Source: an uncultured Myxococcales bacterium (GTDB taxonomy: Bacteria > Myxococcota_A > UBA9042 > DTJE01). From it: DNA of 64,000 bases. How positions within the stretch are numbered: position 1 is the stretch's first letter; every line of letters begins with the position of its first letter. Positions 25,254 through 32,974 of this stretch are shown here, piece after piece. Location of the stretch: positions 311,883-375,882 of the forward strand of contig CAIZWN010000005.1 in the NCBI GenBank assembly GCA_903936705.1, written 5' to 3'. Both the position numbers and the translations under genes were made by a program. The notes under the pieces were generated by a model. That model searched no databases and was not told where the DNA came from. It was given only the letters and a program-made list of their open reading frames with translations.

Positions 25254-25281
25254 TTGACTGACAGTCTGTGTCAGATAGACT
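25254..25281 (+). promoter_or_regulatory. Promoter of first GH5 gene with palindromic operator in its spacer
   Basis: -35 TTGACT (25254-25259), 16-base spacer, -10 TAGACT (25276-25281), predicted start about 34 bases before the ATG. The palindrome TGACAGTCTGTGTCA (25259-25273; arms TGACA/TGTCA) fills the spacer, the classic place for a repressor. The identical 15-mer is at the promoter of the paralogous gene at 32959-32973. Confidence 0.65.
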
Positions 25282-25321
25282 CTCCAGCGTGTCTCAAAGC
25301 CGGTTGAACCGGAGGATGCCA

Positions 25322-28288
25322 ATGATCAAGAACACCTTGATTGCGCTGGTCCTGACTGGTTTGGCAGCCTGCGCAGGGGAGGCTCCTGTTCACTCCCCAG
25401 GACCCGCAGAAACCCCGAAAATCGACCGCAACTTCCTGCGCGACGATCAAGGCCGCTACATGAGTCTGCACGGCGTCAATGCATCGGGTGAATCGAAGGT
25501 TCCGGCCTGGCTGACCGTCAATGGTGTTGCCCGTCCATTCGTCCAGGCAGATCTGCGCTCTACCCCGTTGATCGGTGTACCCAGTTTCGTAGGACGGCCG
25601 TTCCCGCTGGACCAGGGATGGAAGCCCGGGGACGGGGTTGTGGCAATGGACGGCAAACTGGGCCGTGTACGGGACGCCGTCCGCGATCTGCGCGACGCGG
25701 GGTTCGACTCGATTCGCCTGGTGATCCTGTGGGAGGGCATCGAACCGGAACGACGAGGCACGTACGACGCGGAATACCTGCACTACCTGCGCCGGGTTGT
25801 CGAGATCTCCAAGGAATACGGGATCTACGTGCTGCTGGACTTTCATCAGGACATGGTCAGCCGCTACCTGACCGTTCGGTTCAATGACCGGCCTACCGTC
25901 GTCACCGAGGACGGCATTGAGATCGCAGTCGACAAGTACAGCGTGGAAAACCAGGTACTGGCGCTGTTCCCCCCATACACCGACGCCGTCCGAGGTGACG
26001 GCATGCCAAAGTGGGCTGTCCAGACGTCGCTGCCTGAAAAGGACATGCGGCCATCGAATCCCTGGTGGGGAACGCCACGAACGATCTCGGGCTTCAATCC
26101 CCTCATGCTGTGCAAGGCCTACTCCGTGTACCAGATGGTATCTGGCGACGAACCTGACGCGCTGGTGCAGGTTGCCTGCAGCAGCCTTGATCCAACCAGC
26201 CCCAACTACGACCCTGTCGACGGACGGGACGCCGTGTGCTCGGCCATTCCGAAATTGTCCGACGACGATCTGGCCCCATGGCTGAAGCGTCTGGCGCAGT
26301 ACGCCTGCCAGGATCCAGACCCGCAGTTCGCCCCATACGAAAGCACTGACCAGCTACCCTTTTCCCAGTGGAGCGTGGTTGCCGTCGTATCGCTGGATGT
26401 GGACCGCACGGCCGCGGCGTTCTTCGGTTCAGACAAGGTACTGCCAGGCTTGTATGCGAAGGAGTGCCGGGATCCTGGCGCGAATCCGCATGACCTGTTC
26501 GGCTGCAAAACCCTGCACTACCCCACCCACATGGTGTGTCGCGACAAGGACCGCGAGACGTGGGACCTTGATGGGGACGGGACCGGAAGGACTCCATGCG
26601 CCGACGTGCGCGAGGAGTACTACTCGGTGAAGGACTACCTTCAGGAGGCTTACGCCGGGTCGTGGCTGGCACTGATCGATGCCCTTAAGGTCGGGAGCAA
26701 GCCGGTCGGCGACCCGGACAATCGGAAGGTCATGCCTAATGTGATCGGGTACGACATCGCTAACGAGCCGGTGGGACACGTGACGGGGCTGCTGCTGGGA
26801 AACCTGCCACTGGTGGCCAGCGTGGATCGCAAGATGATCACCGACCTGGCGAAGTCCCTGGTGGATGATCCCGTCACGGCACAGGCTATCGCCGACCTGG
26901 TGCCAGCATTGTCGCTGGTCCCTGACCTCCCGCCCGTTCCCGAGGAACCCGTGGCTCCGGTTCCACCCGTCGCACCGGATTGCACCGGGCTGGACCAGGA
27001 CGTCTGCGACGTGCAGTGGACGATGTACCGAATCGAGCAGGACAAGTATGACGGCGATAAGGCGGCCTACGACCTTGCCCTGGCCTCGTGGCCTGCAGCC
27101 AAGACAGCCGCCGAGTCTGCCAGGTCGATCCTGTTGCGGCAGTGGGGTCTGGAGTGGGATTCGCCCACCGATCGCGAACCAGCCAAGGCATCCAAGGACG
27201 AAACGACGTCCCAACGAACCGACCTGTTCGGCCTGGTCGACTTCGCTACCCTGTTCGACTACGCCTACCTGCGCCCGTTCCACGGCAGAATCGGGCGGGC
27301 CATCCTGAAGGCTGATCCAAACGCGATCCTCTTCCTTGGGGGGTCGCTCAGCCTTGGCGAGCCGCTTGGAGGCATCGTCGGTCCGGTCCGCGGCGTACCT
27401 ACGCCGGATGGCCTGGAGGGACACGTCGTCTGGGCGCCCCACTATTACGTGGATATCTACCCGTTCCTGGGCTTCAACCAGCCGCCACGCGAGTTCAAGC
27501 TGGAGGAACTGCGTTTCAGGGACTATTCGGAAGGGGTCAAGGCCGGGACACAACTGGCGATTGACTCGATGGGAAACGCGCCGGTCGTGTACGGCGAATT
27601 CGGTTCCTATTTCAACTTCGGCGGCATCCAGCAATCGATGGCACAGGATTACGCGCTGACCTCCAACATACTGGACAACTACTACGAGGCATTCGAGGGC
27701 CAGTTTCTCAGCAGGATGGTCTGGTGCCTGGCCTTCGGGAACGACACCCGCTTTGGCGACGGCTGGAACATGGAAGACTTCAGTATCCGAGGGCCGGCCG
27801 TTCGGGATGCCGACGAGAACGTGACCGACCCCGGCCCCTGGCGCGCAGCCGAGTCCTGGGCGCGCCCCCATGCTAGATCGATGGCTGGCCGTCCAATGTC
27901 GACACACTATTATTCCCCGCTGCACTACTTCAATTCCGACAAGGGCGTACCCGATCCGGTCGGAGAATTCGAGGTCCGCTATCTGGCCAAGGAGGTTGGC
28001 GCCCCAACCGAGATCCAGATACCAGAGATCCGCGTGCCGTCTGTCGACGCGAAGGGGAACACTACCGAACGAGTCCTGCCCTACCCCGACGGTTTCTATG
28101 TGTGGCTGTCGGACGGAATGGCCTACTACGACTCGCAGCGCCACGTTTTGCAGCACTATCCATCGAACGACGCACCGGGTGCCGAGCACTGGATCCGGAT
28201 CCTGCCGCCGCTGCCAGGAAACGTGGCCAAGGGCTGGCAGTACTTCTTCCAGGGCGACAAGGTCATCAAGGGGGCGACAGGGGAGTAA
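25322..28288 (+). CDS. GH5 endoglycoceramidase-like lipoprotein, 988 residues
   Basis: Predicted surface glycosidase. Lipobox LAAC (acylated Cys17), then the opening of an endoglycoceramidase-type (beta/alpha)8 barrel: SLHGVNASGESKVPAW, DSIRLVILWEGIEP, VLLDFHQDMVSRYL. Acid/base Glu482 in IANEPVGH and nucleophile Glu759 in YGEFGSYF. The C-terminal beta-domain (about 890-988) resembles the one following the barrel in that family. It is about twice the usual length because of a Cys-containing insertion (about 285-440) and a helical Lys/Ala/Asp-rich insertion (about 530-620). The ATG at 25322 is taken because GGAGG abuts the earlier ATG. Paralogue of the gene at 30000-32909. Substrate, for example glycosphingolipid or sterol glycoside, not proven. 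Confidence 0.88.
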   Translation: MIKNTLIALVLTGLAACAGEAPVHSPGPAETPKIDRNFLRDDQGRYMSLHGVNASGESKVPAWLTVNGVARPFVQADLRSTPLIGVPSFVGRPFPLDQGWKPGDGVVAMDGKLGRVRDAVRDLRDAGFDSIRLVILWEGIEPERRGTYDAEYLHYLRRVVEISKEYGIYVLLDFHQDMVSRYLTVRFNDRPTVVTEDGIEIAVDKYSVENQVLALFPPYTDAVRGDGMPKWAVQTSLPEKDMRPSNPWWGTPRTISGFNPLMLCKAYSVYQMVSGDEPDALVQVACSSLDPTSPNYDPVDGRDAVCSAIPKLSDDDLAPWLKRLAQYACQDPDPQFAPYESTDQLPFSQWSVVAVVSLDVDRTAAAFFGSDKVLPGLYAKECRDPGANPHDLFGCKTLHYPTHMVCRDKDRETWDLDGDGTGRTPCADVREEYYSVKDYLQEAYAGSWLALIDALKVGSKPVGDPDNRKVMPNVIGYDIANEPVGHVTGLLLGNLPLVASVDRKMITDLAKSLVDDPVTAQAIADLVPALSLVPDLPPVPEEPVAPVPPVAPDCTGLDQDVCDVQWTMYRIEQDKYDGDKAAYDLALASWPAAKTAAESARSILLRQWGLEWDSPTDREPAKASKDETTSQRTDLFGLVDFATLFDYAYLRPFHGRIGRAILKADPNAILFLGGSLSLGEPLGGIVGPVRGVPTPDGLEGHVVWAPHYYVDIYPFLGFNQPPREFKLEELRFRDYSEGVKAGTQLAIDSMGNAPVVYGEFGSYFNFGGIQQSMAQDYALTSNILDNYYEAFEGQFLSRMVWCLAFGNDTRFGDGWNMEDFSIRGPAVRDADENVTDPGPWRAAESWARPHARSMAGRPMSTHYYSPLHYFNSDKGVPDPVGEFEVRYLAKEVGAPTEIQIPEIRVPSVDAKGNTTERVLPYPDGFYVWLSDGMAYYDSQRHVLQHYPSNDAPGAEHWIRILPPLPGNVAKGWQYFFQGDKVIKGATGE

Positions 28289-28313
28289 GAGGTTGTGACC
28301 TCGTGGCAACCTC
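28289..28313. terminator. Hairpin between convergent GH5 genes
   Basis: GAGGTTG (28289-28295) pairs with CAACCTC (28307-28313), starting right after the stop codon. An alternative inner pairing GAGGT/ACCTC exists. No T-run follows, so it could mark an intrinsic or Rho-dependent end or be fortuitous. Confidence 0.3.
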
Positions 28314-28405
28314 CTGGTGAAAGGTCAGCGGAGCGTCATTCCTTTACGAACGTACACGCAAGCAATCAGCTTCGACATCGAAGATCACTGGTGGGAAGGT
28401 TCGGA

Positions 28406-29989
28406 CTATTGCTCAGGACGGGGCTGCGGGTTCTTCAGCTTCGCCAGCAAAGCCTCGTTCGGGTCAACGGTCAGTTCCCGGTAGGCTTCGAACTTTGTCT
28501 TCAGGGTCGCGAAATCATCGACATATGGGTCCGGACGCACAAAATTGCTCTTCAGTCGCCCACGCAGGCCCCATGAAGTCGAGAAGTCGAAGACAGGCAT
28601 GCTGATCGGGTCGTCAAGGCGCTTGTACGTCCAAAGCGACCACGAAAACCCTTGCTGCTGCATCCACCACGCCGCATAACCGGCCGCATCGTACGCCCAT
28701 TCCTGGTCCAGAAAGGTCGAGAAACTACCAATGTAATAGGGAACCTTTTGCCGCGCCTGTGCCTCGGTGAACCTGGGGCCATAGAGTGCATCAAAAAGAA
28801 AGGCATAGGCGTCGTAGTCGGAAGTGGACCACTCGAAAAGGTGGGTGGAGTAGACGACATTATCCCAAAGGTACGTGGCAGGATCCGGCAGCGAGTCCAT
28901 CCCCATGAAGCCATCGTGGATCACACACAGGTGGTCGTCGCCCTTGGCGCGCACGGCCTTCACGATGCGGTCGTACATCTGGTCCCGAGCGTCGGCATCG
29001 GGCGCTCCGTACGGCTCGGCCAGAAGACTGTATGCAGCGACCTCGTCTCTGTCATGCAGCAGGTCCGACAGGTGTTCCCACATCTGCACCGTAAGATCCT
29101 GCATATGCACGTTCGAGTAGAGTCCTGACGTGCCCGAATAGGAGTTCTGGCCGCCCGGCGCCTCCTGGATGTCGACCACCGCGTAAACGCCGTTGCGCCG
29201 GCACCAGTCCAGCAGGTCGGTCAGCCGCTTTTCGGCCATCGGGTTGAAGTCGAGCGCCTCGGGAGCCTCGGCGTCCACACCCCTCACCAGCGACCGGTAG
29301 CCGATCGGAACCCGTACGACGTTGAAGCCCTGAGCAGCCAGCCACGCAATGTCGGCTTCCGTAATCCAGGCTTGCTGGAAGGCATCCAGCAGTTCGTCGC
29401 GACCCTCTGTACCAAAGCGATCGGCCAGGATCTTCCGCAGCGAAAGGTCTGCGTCGTCGCACAAAGGCGGGTACTCGACCAGGCCATCCAGCAGGGTCTT
29501 TGCCGTGTCTGCTCCGACTGCGGTGACCAACCGGTCCTTCAACCTGGCGGTCCACAGATCGCCGTTGCCAGGGCAGACCTTCGTGACGGCAGGATCGGTG
29601 CCGTACTCGGGCCCGATCTCGCGCATCGCCGCGACGACGGCCTCCTGAACGCCCAGTTTCGCCGCCGCCTCGTAAAGCGCGCCATGGCTGGTCTGGCCGA
29701 CCAGCGTTATCCAGGTTTCATGGAACATCCATCCGCCAAGGTTGACGCCTCGCAGAACGACCTCGTTTCCTGCCGGATCCACGATACGGGGTCCGTCTGC
29801 ATGCAATCGGGGCAGTCCGGCCGGAATGACATCAGGCGCTTCCGGAGCATCGGCGACATCCACAGCATCCACCACATCGAAGATGTCGGAAGCATCAGCG
29901 ACATCGGTCAGGTCTGTTCCGTCGCCACCGGACGAGCATCCAGGCATGACGACAAGGATAGCCACCAGAACCGTTTTCCAGCACATCAT
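28406..29989 (-). CDS. GH5-type glycosidase lipoprotein with altered nucleophile position
   Basis: 527 residues. Lipobox MPGC (Cys18), an Asp/Val/Ala linker (about 22-55), then an exo-glucanase-like GH5 barrel starting RGVNLGGWM. FNVVRVPIGYRSLV and VDIQEAPGGQN follow the family. The acid/base is Glu325 in LLAEPYG. At the strand-7 position where GH5 enzymes carry the nucleophile Glu (GEFS/GEWS), the sequence reads IGSFST with Ser422. It may therefore be inactive, a binding protein, or use another residue. The ATG at 29989 has GAGG eight bases upstream and lies 10 bases after the larger GH5 gene stop, so the two are co-transcribed. Confidence 0.83.
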   Translation of the reverse strand: MMCWKTVLVAILVVMPGCSSGGDGTDLTDVADASDIFDVVDAVDVADAPEAPDVIPAGLPRLHADGPRIVDPAGNEVVLRGVNLGGWMFHETWITLVGQTSHGALYEAAAKLGVQEAVVAAMREIGPEYGTDPAVTKVCPGNGDLWTARLKDRLVTAVGADTAKTLLDGLVEYPPLCDDADLSLRKILADRFGTEGRDELLDAFQQAWITEADIAWLAAQGFNVVRVPIGYRSLVRGVDAEAPEALDFNPMAEKRLTDLLDWCRRNGVYAVVDIQEAPGGQNSYSGTSGLYSNVHMQDLTVQMWEHLSDLLHDRDEVAAYSLLAEPYGAPDADARDQMYDRIVKAVRAKGDDHLCVIHDGFMGMDSLPDPATYLWDNVVYSTHLFEWSTSDYDAYAFLFDALYGPRFTEAQARQKVPYYIGSFSTFLDQEWAYDAAGYAAWWMQQQGFSWSLWTYKRLDDPISMPVFDFSTSWGLRGRLKSNFVRPDPYVDDFATLKTKFEAYRELTVDPNEALLAKLKNPQPRPEQ

Positions 29990-29999
29990 TTCATGTACC

Positions 30000-32909
30000 T
30001 CAATCGCCGGTGACGACCTCGTCGCCACGGAAGAAGTATTGCCAGCCAATCGCAGGACGCCCCTCGATTGGCGGCAGCAGCCTCACCCAGTGCTCCACAC
30101 CCGGCTCGTCAACCGACGGCAGGTGGTACAAGGTCCGGTTTCCGTGGTTGTAGTACGCAACCCCATCTGAAATCCAGACGTAGAATCCCTTCGGATACTG
30201 CACGTCGTATGGAATCTGGACCTCCGTCGGCCGGTCAGTTTCCTTGCTGGCGTATCGCACCTCGAACTCGCCAACCGGATCAGGCATGCCCTTGTCCGGC
30301 TGAAAGAAGTGATACGGGCTGTAGAAGTGCGTGGAAATCGGCCGCCCAGCCATCGCGCGGGCGTGCGGCCTGGCCCAGACCTCCTGGGCACGCCAGGGCC
30401 TCGAGGTATTACCCTGGGCGTCCGTCACTTCGAAACTCTGGATGCTGAAGTCCTCCTTGTTCCACAGGTCTCCGTAACGCATGTCGTTGTCCGGGCTATA
30501 GCACCACAGCATCCGGCTGGCGAACAGGGACTCAAAGCCTTCGAAGAAGTTGTCGTAGATCTGCTTCGTGATCTCGTAGTCCTCGGCAATCGACTGCTCG
30601 ACCCCGTTGAAGTTGTAATACGCGCCGAACTCCCCGAACACGACGGGTGCGTTACCCAACGATTCGGTCGCCAGCATTGCCGCATTCTTCATGCCCTCGG
30701 TATAGTCGCGAAACTGGACCTCCTCGACCTTGAAGTACCGCGGGCTGACGTTGAAGCCCAGGAATGGATAGATGTCCTCGTAGTGGTGTGGGGCAAACAC
30801 CACAGCCCCGTCAAGGCCGTCCGGCGTGGGCATACCCAGGTCGTACCCGACGCTGCCCAGGCCCATCGAGCCCTCCATGAAAATCAGCGCCTTCGGATCC
30901 GCCTTCTTTATCGCGTTACCGACGCGCTGATAGAACGGCCGCAGGAATGTCCAATCGAACGATGTGTTCAGGTCGATCAAGCTGAACAAATCAAGCTTGT
31001 TCACGTTCGTCTCAGTGACCTTCGACGGCTCGGCGCTGTCGAACGCGTCCCACATCAGGCCCCACGACTTCAAGATCCGCGTCTTTTCGTCCTCGGCCGC
31101 CTTCTTCCTATCGGGATACGTCGCCATCTCGGTGTCGTATGTCGCCTTGCCTGCGTCGTAACCCTGCTTGGCCTTCTGGTACAAAGCCTTTTCGACCAGA
31201 TAACGGTCCAGGGCATTCTGGTCGGCGGTTGGGCCAGGATCCAGGGGTTCCTGCGGCGCTACCGGAGCCTTCGGTTCTTCCGGAATGGAGGGAACCGACG
31301 GAATCAGGCCCAACGCTGGAATCACCTTCGCAATCGTCTCGGCCACTGCGGCGTCGCTGACAAGGTTCTTCAACAGATCCAGAATCATCGAGTCGTTGAC
31401 ACCCCCCATCTGCACCAGCGCCTGCACGGCCAGCATGATGTTGTAGCCAACCGGCTCGTTCATGATGTCGTAGCCAATGACGTTCGGGAGGTCCTTGACC
31501 TGCTGGACGACCTGAACCCAGGAATTCGCGTAGGCATCCTGCAGGTAGTCCTTGACGGTCCAGTATTCCTCGACGAGTTCCTGGCACCCCTCGATCTGCC
31601 ATGTCTCCTTGTCGTCATCCCGGCAAACCACGTGGGTCGGAAAAACCAGCTTGTCCGGGGGGCACCCGTAGAGTTCGTGACGGTCACCCCCGTTGTCGCA
31701 TTCGCGTGCGTAGAGGCCGGGAAAGGCCACGTCCGACCCGAAAAAGGCCGCGTTGGTACGCTCGGCATCCAGGCTGACGATCGAACCCTGGCTCCAGTCG
31801 GTGAACGGCAGCATGTCCACCGATTTTTCCGGAGGGAACACCGGGTCGCTGCCCGGCACGCCGATCGGGTTTTCGACGTTGCAGGCGTATCTGGCGACCT
31901 GCTTGATCCAGGGGGGCAAGTCCTCGTCCGAGACGTCCAATACGGCGCCGCAAACTGCCGAGCGACCGTCCAGCGGGTCGTAGTTGGGGCTGGCCGGGTC
32001 CAGCGTGCTGCAAGCGAACGTGATCAGCGGATCAGCGTCCTCATCCGACACGAAGCAATAGACGTCGTAGGCCTTGCACAGGAGCGCCGGCGAGAACTGG
32101 CTGACGATCCGAGGCGTCCCCCAGAAAACGTTCTGGGGACTCATGTCCTTTTCGGGAAGGGCCGTCTGGACCGCCCATCGGGGCATGCCGTCACCGCGCA
32201 CTTGATCCGTGTATGGCCCAACCAGCGCCAGAACCATCGCCTCGATGCTGTCGGCTTCCGCCGTTTTAACGGAACCATCCTCCGTCTTGTAGGTCGGCTT
32301 GTCGTTGTAACGTGCGGTAAGGAAGCGGCTGACCATGTCCTGGTGGAAGTCCATCAGCACATAGATGCCTTCCTCGTTTGCGATCCTAGCCACCTGCCCG
32401 ATGTAGTGCAGGTACTCGGTATCGTATTCGGCACGCGACCTGGGCTGGACCGATTCCCACAAGACCATCAGGCGGAACGAATCGAAACCGTTGTCGTGCA
32501 GTTTCCGAATCTCGGCCCTGACATTGGAAAAACCCATCGTCGCCGTGCCGTCGCCCGGTTTCCAGCCCGGGTCCAAAGCAAACGGGCGGCCGACGAACGA
32601 GGCGTCGTAGGCTGTCGGCCGCAGGTTCAGGTCGGCCTTTGTGAAGGGGCGCCACGAGGCGCCGGCTTCCTTCACCCAGAAAGGCACCTTTGAGGACCCG
32701 GCCACGTTGATGCCGTGGAACGAAAGATAACGACCGCTTTCGTCCCGCAGATAGTTGCGGTCGATGACGGGACGCGACAAGGCCTGGCCGGACCGCGGAA
32801 CATCCCCGGTTCCGCATCCAGCCATTGCGAGTGTCACCACAAACGCGAAGGCCAGGGCAAATGGTGCCGATACCGCACGCTTGAAGACCGAAAGTGCCGT
32901 CGCATTCAT
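30000..32909 (-). CDS. GH5 endoglycoceramidase-like lipoprotein, 969 residues
   Basis: Paralogue of the gene at 25322-28288, matching along its full length. Signal peptide, lipobox AMAGC (Cys32), then SFHGINVAGSSKVPFW, VLMDFHQDMVSRFL, acid/base Glu485 in IMNEPVGY and nucleophile Glu760 in FGEFGAYY, with the same C-terminal beta-domain. Both insertions are kept: the Cys-bearing one (FACSTLDPASPNYDPLDG) and the helical Lys/Ala/Tyr-rich one (about 590-650). The ATG has GGGAGGGG upstream. First gene of a two-gene operon with the smaller GH5-type protein. Its promoter contains the shared palindrome. Likely acts on extracellular glycolipid; substrate unproven. Confidence 0.88.
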   Translation of the reverse strand: MNATALSVFKRAVSAPFALAFAFVVTLAMAGCGTGDVPRSGQALSRPVIDRNYLRDESGRYLSFHGINVAGSSKVPFWVKEAGASWRPFTKADLNLRPTAYDASFVGRPFALDPGWKPGDGTATMGFSNVRAEIRKLHDNGFDSFRLMVLWESVQPRSRAEYDTEYLHYIGQVARIANEEGIYVLMDFHQDMVSRFLTARYNDKPTYKTEDGSVKTAEADSIEAMVLALVGPYTDQVRGDGMPRWAVQTALPEKDMSPQNVFWGTPRIVSQFSPALLCKAYDVYCFVSDEDADPLITFACSTLDPASPNYDPLDGRSAVCGAVLDVSDEDLPPWIKQVARYACNVENPIGVPGSDPVFPPEKSVDMLPFTDWSQGSIVSLDAERTNAAFFGSDVAFPGLYARECDNGGDRHELYGCPPDKLVFPTHVVCRDDDKETWQIEGCQELVEEYWTVKDYLQDAYANSWVQVVQQVKDLPNVIGYDIMNEPVGYNIMLAVQALVQMGGVNDSMILDLLKNLVSDAAVAETIAKVIPALGLIPSVPSIPEEPKAPVAPQEPLDPGPTADQNALDRYLVEKALYQKAKQGYDAGKATYDTEMATYPDRKKAAEDEKTRILKSWGLMWDAFDSAEPSKVTETNVNKLDLFSLIDLNTSFDWTFLRPFYQRVGNAIKKADPKALIFMEGSMGLGSVGYDLGMPTPDGLDGAVVFAPHHYEDIYPFLGFNVSPRYFKVEEVQFRDYTEGMKNAAMLATESLGNAPVVFGEFGAYYNFNGVEQSIAEDYEITKQIYDNFFEGFESLFASRMLWCYSPDNDMRYGDLWNKEDFSIQSFEVTDAQGNTSRPWRAQEVWARPHARAMAGRPISTHFYSPYHFFQPDKGMPDPVGEFEVRYASKETDRPTEVQIPYDVQYPKGFYVWISDGVAYYNHGNRTLYHLPSVDEPGVEHWVRLLPPIEGRPAIGWQYFFRGDEVVTGD

Positions 32910-32945
32910 GCCGGTTACCCCTCCCGAAGCCAGCCGTCCAGATGG

Positions 32946-32974
32946 AAGTTACTGTCCGTGACAGTCTGTGTCAA
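32946..32974 (-). promoter_or_regulatory. Promoter of second GH5 operon with two overlapping palindromes
   Basis: On the minus strand: TTGACA, exactly 17 bases, TAACTT, giving a leader of about 30 bases. The shared operator (32959-32973 on +, TGACAGTCTGTGTCA) overlaps the -35 and spacer. A second perfect palindrome, ACTGTC-CGT-GACAGT (32951-32965), overlaps it and reaches the -10. The tight placement predicts repression. Confidence 0.65.

Follow-up and report, generated by a model that had tools for sequence, protein, structure and literature searches.

MftR, the TetR-type regulator of the mycofactocin genes in mycobacteria, has long-chain acyl-CoAs as its effectors, and its footprinted operator, TCCATTCTGGCACTCGATGCCATATAT, contains the palindrome T-N2-GGCA-N5-TGCC-N2-A (PMC8728441). 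In Pseudomonas aeruginosa, SphR is an AraC-family activator that acts through direct repeats and responds to sphingosine; its small regulon includes neutral ceramidase and is thought to serve sphingolipid use (PMC3900636). A literature search for an operator with TGACA/TGTCA arms returned nothing useful.

Here, we present an analysis of a 64,000-nt stretch of DNA ("the window") from the genome of an uncultured Myxococcales bacterium (4.85 Mb, designated G000). A first-pass annotation of this stretch had reported an identical 15-mer palindrome upstream of two genes of glycoside hydrolase family 5 (GH5) and had predicted a single repressor for a surface glycolipid-degrading set of genes. The palindrome was searched in the window, in its own genome and in relatives, and the regulatory genes associated with it were compared with described families.

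Results

GH5 genes and palindromes of the window

The features relevant to the analysis are the following.

25254..25281, plus strand: sigma-70-like promoter of GH5a, TTGACT-16-TAGACT (promoter scan; both hexamers identical in relative G009)
25259..25273, plus strand: palindrome 1, TGACA-GTCTG-TGTCA, within the GH5a promoter, putative TetR operator; orthologous site in G009, TGGCAGTTTGTGTCA
25322..28288, plus strand: GH5a, lipoprotein glycoside hydrolase family 5, endoglycoceramidase-like (PF00150; weak match to the endoglycoceramidase I model)
28406..29989, minus strand: GH5c, third lipoprotein GH5, placed immediately behind GH5b (PF00150)
30000..32909, minus strand: GH5b, lipoprotein GH5 with GH5 C-terminal domain (PF00150 and PF18564; PDB matches)
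32951..32965, no strand: overlapping perfect palindrome ACTGTC-CGT-GACAGT
32959..32973, minus strand: palindrome 2, second copy of the 15-mer, putative operator within the GH5b-GH5c promoter; a possible -35 hexamer, TTGACA, overlaps it

The GH5 identity of the genes behind the palindromes was confirmed by PF00150; the start codon of GH5a was inferred from its ribosome-binding site. GH5b and GH5c probably form one operon, and their order is kept in the relatives G001 and G009. By PDB comparison, the nearest solved relatives of GH5b are the sterylglucosidase SglA and endoglycoceramidase II. Against the NCBIfam model for endoglycoceramidase I, with a cut-off of 700 bits, GH5a and GH5b fall short with 55 and 45 bits, respectively.

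Exact copies of TGACAGTCTGTGTCA are present at 25259-25273 and 32959-32973, as the first-pass annotation had it, and this is the sole palindrome of the type 5-N5-5 with two copies inside the window. Any repeated palindrome of this type was found in 6 of 200 Markov windows, which corresponds to a chance of about 3% for the window alone. In the complete genome G000, TGACAGTCTGTGTCA occurs in these two places only, even if one mismatch is allowed. The general form TGACA-N5-TGTCA was found genome-wide in three places, as was its reversed control, and the degenerate form TGRCA-N5-TGYCA in 23 places against 18 for the control, so that the genome-wide enrichment proposed earlier as a check fails in G000. 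Without enrichment of the degenerate form, the case from this genome alone is modest, and the regulon in G000 would consist of two promoters only, those of GH5a and GH5b-GH5c. By itself, the window thus gives a hint of an operator, short of proof. The second palindrome described as overlapping site 2, ACTGTC-CGT-GACAGT, is real; none of its type was seen at other GH5 or ceramidase sites.

Good sigma-70 promoters had been annotated at both sites. This holds for TTGACT-16-TAGACT, which was detected by the promoter scan and is conserved in G009, whereas TTGACA-17-TAACTT on the GH5b side lies below the threshold of the scan, so that "good" is too strong for this second promoter. The scan also found the divergent esterase promoter described about 40 bp from the first site, as a weak one at 25218-25190 on the minus strand. 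The esterase gene is not a neighbor of the GH5 genes in any relative fetched, and its membership in the regulon is without support. A sigma-54 site, considered for TGGCAC, was ruled out by its wrong spacing on inspection of the sequence, and the spacer of 16-17 bp offers no reason to assume a MerR-type activator.

Conservation of the sites in relatives

The three GH5 genes stay together across relatives, while their surroundings and order vary. In G009, which belongs to another genus, the palindrome is kept at both orthologous promoters, TTGACTGGCAGTTTGTGTCAGCTAGACT for GH5a and TGGCACTCTGTGCCA for GH5b. Compared with G000, G009 has G-C instead of A-T in both arms, a compensatory change that turns TGACA/TGTCA into TGGCA/TGCCA. 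In the window, the sequence of the GH5a promoter is CTTGACTGACAGTCTGTGTCAGATAGACTCTCC, and its counterpart in G009 is CTTGACTGGCAGTTTGTGTCAGCTAGACTGTCC, with TTGACT-16-TAGACT nearly unchanged. At the four sites of both genomes, the gap between palindrome and ATG amounts to 48, 49, 52 and 55 bp.

In G001, the GH5 genes form a single tandem run headed by TGGCAGAGTGTGCCA. This one site lies 123 bp before the first gene, which counts against an operator function. A second GH5 operon of this genome carries TGACACGGACTGCCA. A GH5 operon in G001 is headed, under a palindrome, by a gene (L117:5200-6843) for a 547-aa protein without Pfam match, which by eye resembles an outer-membrane beta-barrel.

Predicted sites upstream of ceramidase-like genes

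The six sites of G000, G009 and G001 (two each) were used to build the pattern TGRCASNNNSTGYCA, which was loosened by eye from these training sites and searched in 13 genomes of the same family, yielding 55 sites. Six new sites with zero mismatches are located upstream of ceramidase-like genes, some of which are joined to GH5c; the genomes concerned are G001, G005 and G011. Across the 59 genes (35 kb) covered, 0.037 such sites were expected (P ~3e-12). This value is only a guide in view of the loosening by eye and because the list of ceramidase-like genes was compiled in part with site-bearing genes as queries. Not counted was a match in G002 (C18:4925) which falls inside a lipoprotein signal sequence, and a match in G005 (C32:23389), situated before lysC-lysA and a ceramidase-like gene, was excluded from the statistics. 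The reversed pattern gave 36 sites in the 13 genomes, and comparison of coordinates identified the only one in a GH5 or ceramidase promoter as the palindrome overlapping site 2.

Scanned as proteins, the products of the site-bearing genes score 16.9 to 31.8 bits against PF04734 (neutral ceramidase), just or well under the curated cut-off of 32.1, so that "ceramidase-like" is a statement of homology only. Numerous GH5 and ceramidase-like genes of these genomes lack a site, a finding that weighs against the operator reading. The motif was not found in the promoters of the GH5b orthologues of G007, G005 and G011; in these genomes, ceramidase-like genes seem to make up the regulon in their place.

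Further observations concern the surroundings of individual matches. In G005, an aspartate kinase gene is preceded at about 60 bp by TGACAGTCTGTGCCA (L107:6390) and followed by a lysA-like and a ceramidase-like gene; these gene names come from sequence inspection. In G001, TGACACGGCGTGTCA (L129:6810) immediately precedes two genes whose products have cyclic-nucleotide-binding domains. Downstream of the operator, the leaders of G011 (L110:7033-7110) and G005 (L134:4480-4580) are alike and include a possible small hairpin (CCTTTCGGGCGAAAGG in G005).

TetR genes linked to the sites

A regular-expression scan, not an exhaustive one, found no TetR-type helix-turn-helix signature in the window, in line with the earlier remark that it contains no regulator gene. 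In the loci of G009, G011 and G005, a six-frame signature scan detected TetR genes, and TetR_N is over cut-off in all three. These genes are divergent from GH5b (G009) or from ceramidase-GH5c (G005, G011), with the palindrome in the shared gap. In G004, a homologue of the ceramidase-like protein of G009 is encoded divergently from a TetR gene with a one-mismatch site between them, and the TetR gene of G007 has a ceramidase-like gene behind it on the same strand.

The search of 53 genomes revealed single TetR homologues in G000, G001, G002 and G007 and more distantly related ones in G004 and G010. Homologues were absent from G003, G006, G008 and G012, and in these four genomes no site was found at any GH5 or ceramidase promoter. 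The TetRs of G000, G001, G002, G005, G009 and G011 form a supported clade (96/96), of which G000 has one member:

C20:16022-16576, minus strand: TetR homologue, only clade member in G000 (homology search and tree)

This protein is only 43% identical to the TetR of G009, which counts against its assignment as the regulator, and no site is visible in its own promoter. The regulator gene carrying its own copy of the palindrome, which the first-pass annotation had suggested looking for, was found in three relatives (G009, G005 and G011) and not in the C20 gene of G000.

The closest named family of this TetR type is MftR (best NCBIfam match TIGR03968), with scores of only 81 and 75.6 bits against a cut-off of 224.9. 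The mycofactocin maturase (TIGR03962) was not found over cut-off in seven genomes, the best match having 152 of 265 bits. An identity with MftR itself was ruled out by these two results.

Two kinds of neighboring genes were also noted. An iron-containing alcohol dehydrogenase-like gene adjoins GH5/ceramidase/TetR loci (L183:4668-5696; L226:936-1982; L077:4587-5621; L207:2268-3058); PF13685 is over cut-off in G002 and just below it in G004, and those of G001 and G009 are similar by eye. A gene for a PIG-L type de-N-acetylase (L110:4336-5133) lies near the TetR gene in G011.

Discussion

The palindrome, with the consensus TGRCA-S-N3-S-TGYCA, is very probably the operator of a TetR-family repressor of an MftR-like subgroup which controls the GH5a and GH5b-GH5c promoters. 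The case is strong because the relatives conserve the known sites and allowed others to be predicted. On the basis of sequence comparison, the system is best read as a small conserved TetR-repressed regulon for the breakdown of surface glycolipids, probably glycosphingolipids, with ceramides as perhaps a further target of its enzymes. The prediction of one repressor for a surface glycolipid-degrading set thus gains support from the conserved sites, their recurrence before GH5 and ceramidase-like genes of other genera and the divergent TetR genes.

Among the alternatives, a conserved operator of another protein fares best, the linked TetRs being bystanders or the C20 TetR not acting in G000. 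The C20 gene, unlinked to the targets and lacking a site of its own, would fit this explanation, as would the limited search for other regulators. We nevertheless regard it as unlikely, as a divergent TetR gene with the site in between is present in three genomes, TetR genes are linked in two more, and the operator core is that of MftR, the closest named family. Far less probable is that the two copies are direct repeats around a 7.7-kb block, for instance a target-site duplication or an attachment site belonging to a mobile GH5 module. Both copies do have the same orientation on the plus strand and flank the three GH5 genes, and the module has differing surroundings in the relatives; but the comparison with G009, where the sites differ in sequence yet retain the palindromic form and the spacing to the start codon, largely refutes this idea, and single sites occur before other genes. 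Chance repetition of a short palindrome, for which the frequency in Markov windows and the lack of enrichment in G000 might speak, is refuted by the conservation in another genus and the six independent predicted sites, and we give it hardly any weight.

If the palindrome is a TetR operator, a repressor dimer bound to it would occupy the -35 and -10 hexamers or the stretch between them and would block RNA polymerase. The repressor could be released by a lipophilic compound arising from glycolipid degradation; as with MftR, this may be a long-chain acyl-CoA. In G009, G005 and G011, the position of the repressor gene, divergent beside its targets with the site between, implies autoregulation. 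In G000, the C20 TetR may act on the GH5a and GH5b-GH5c sites from its unlinked position. Only tentatively do we propose that an MftR-like lineage has kept the operator, and perhaps the sensing of acyl-CoA, and controls surface endoglycoceramidase-like and ceramidase-like lipoproteins in Myxococcota; a fatty acid freed from ceramide could then, as acyl-CoA, induce more degradation.

For the degradation of glycolipids in an uncultured family of Myxococcota known from metagenomes, the analysis provides a candidate for the regulator, a consensus for its operator and a set of targets. The results further suggest that MftR-type operators reach beyond mycofactocin.

Compared with the known enzymes, GH5a and GH5b share the NEP and GEFG motifs with endoglycoceramidase II and the fungal sterylglucosidases Sgl1/SglA (GH5), the nearest solved relatives of GH5b, from which they differ as lipoproteins of about 970-990 aa with large insertions. 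SphR resembles the proposed system in its small regulon with a (neutral) ceramidase among the targets, whereas a TetR protein, an inverted repeat and presumed repression are found here. The likeness to MftR extends to the TetR family, a related recognition helix RT-[LF]-FRY (alignment with 8x0a) and the operator core TGGCA-N5-TGCCA, placed upstream of the target operon; the core described here was derived from promoters, independently of MftR, and the sites have up to 13 of 15 bases in common with the MftR operator. In contrast to MftR, the targets are GH5 and ceramidase-like lipoproteins, the arms permit A/T at position 3, and the effector is a putative one.
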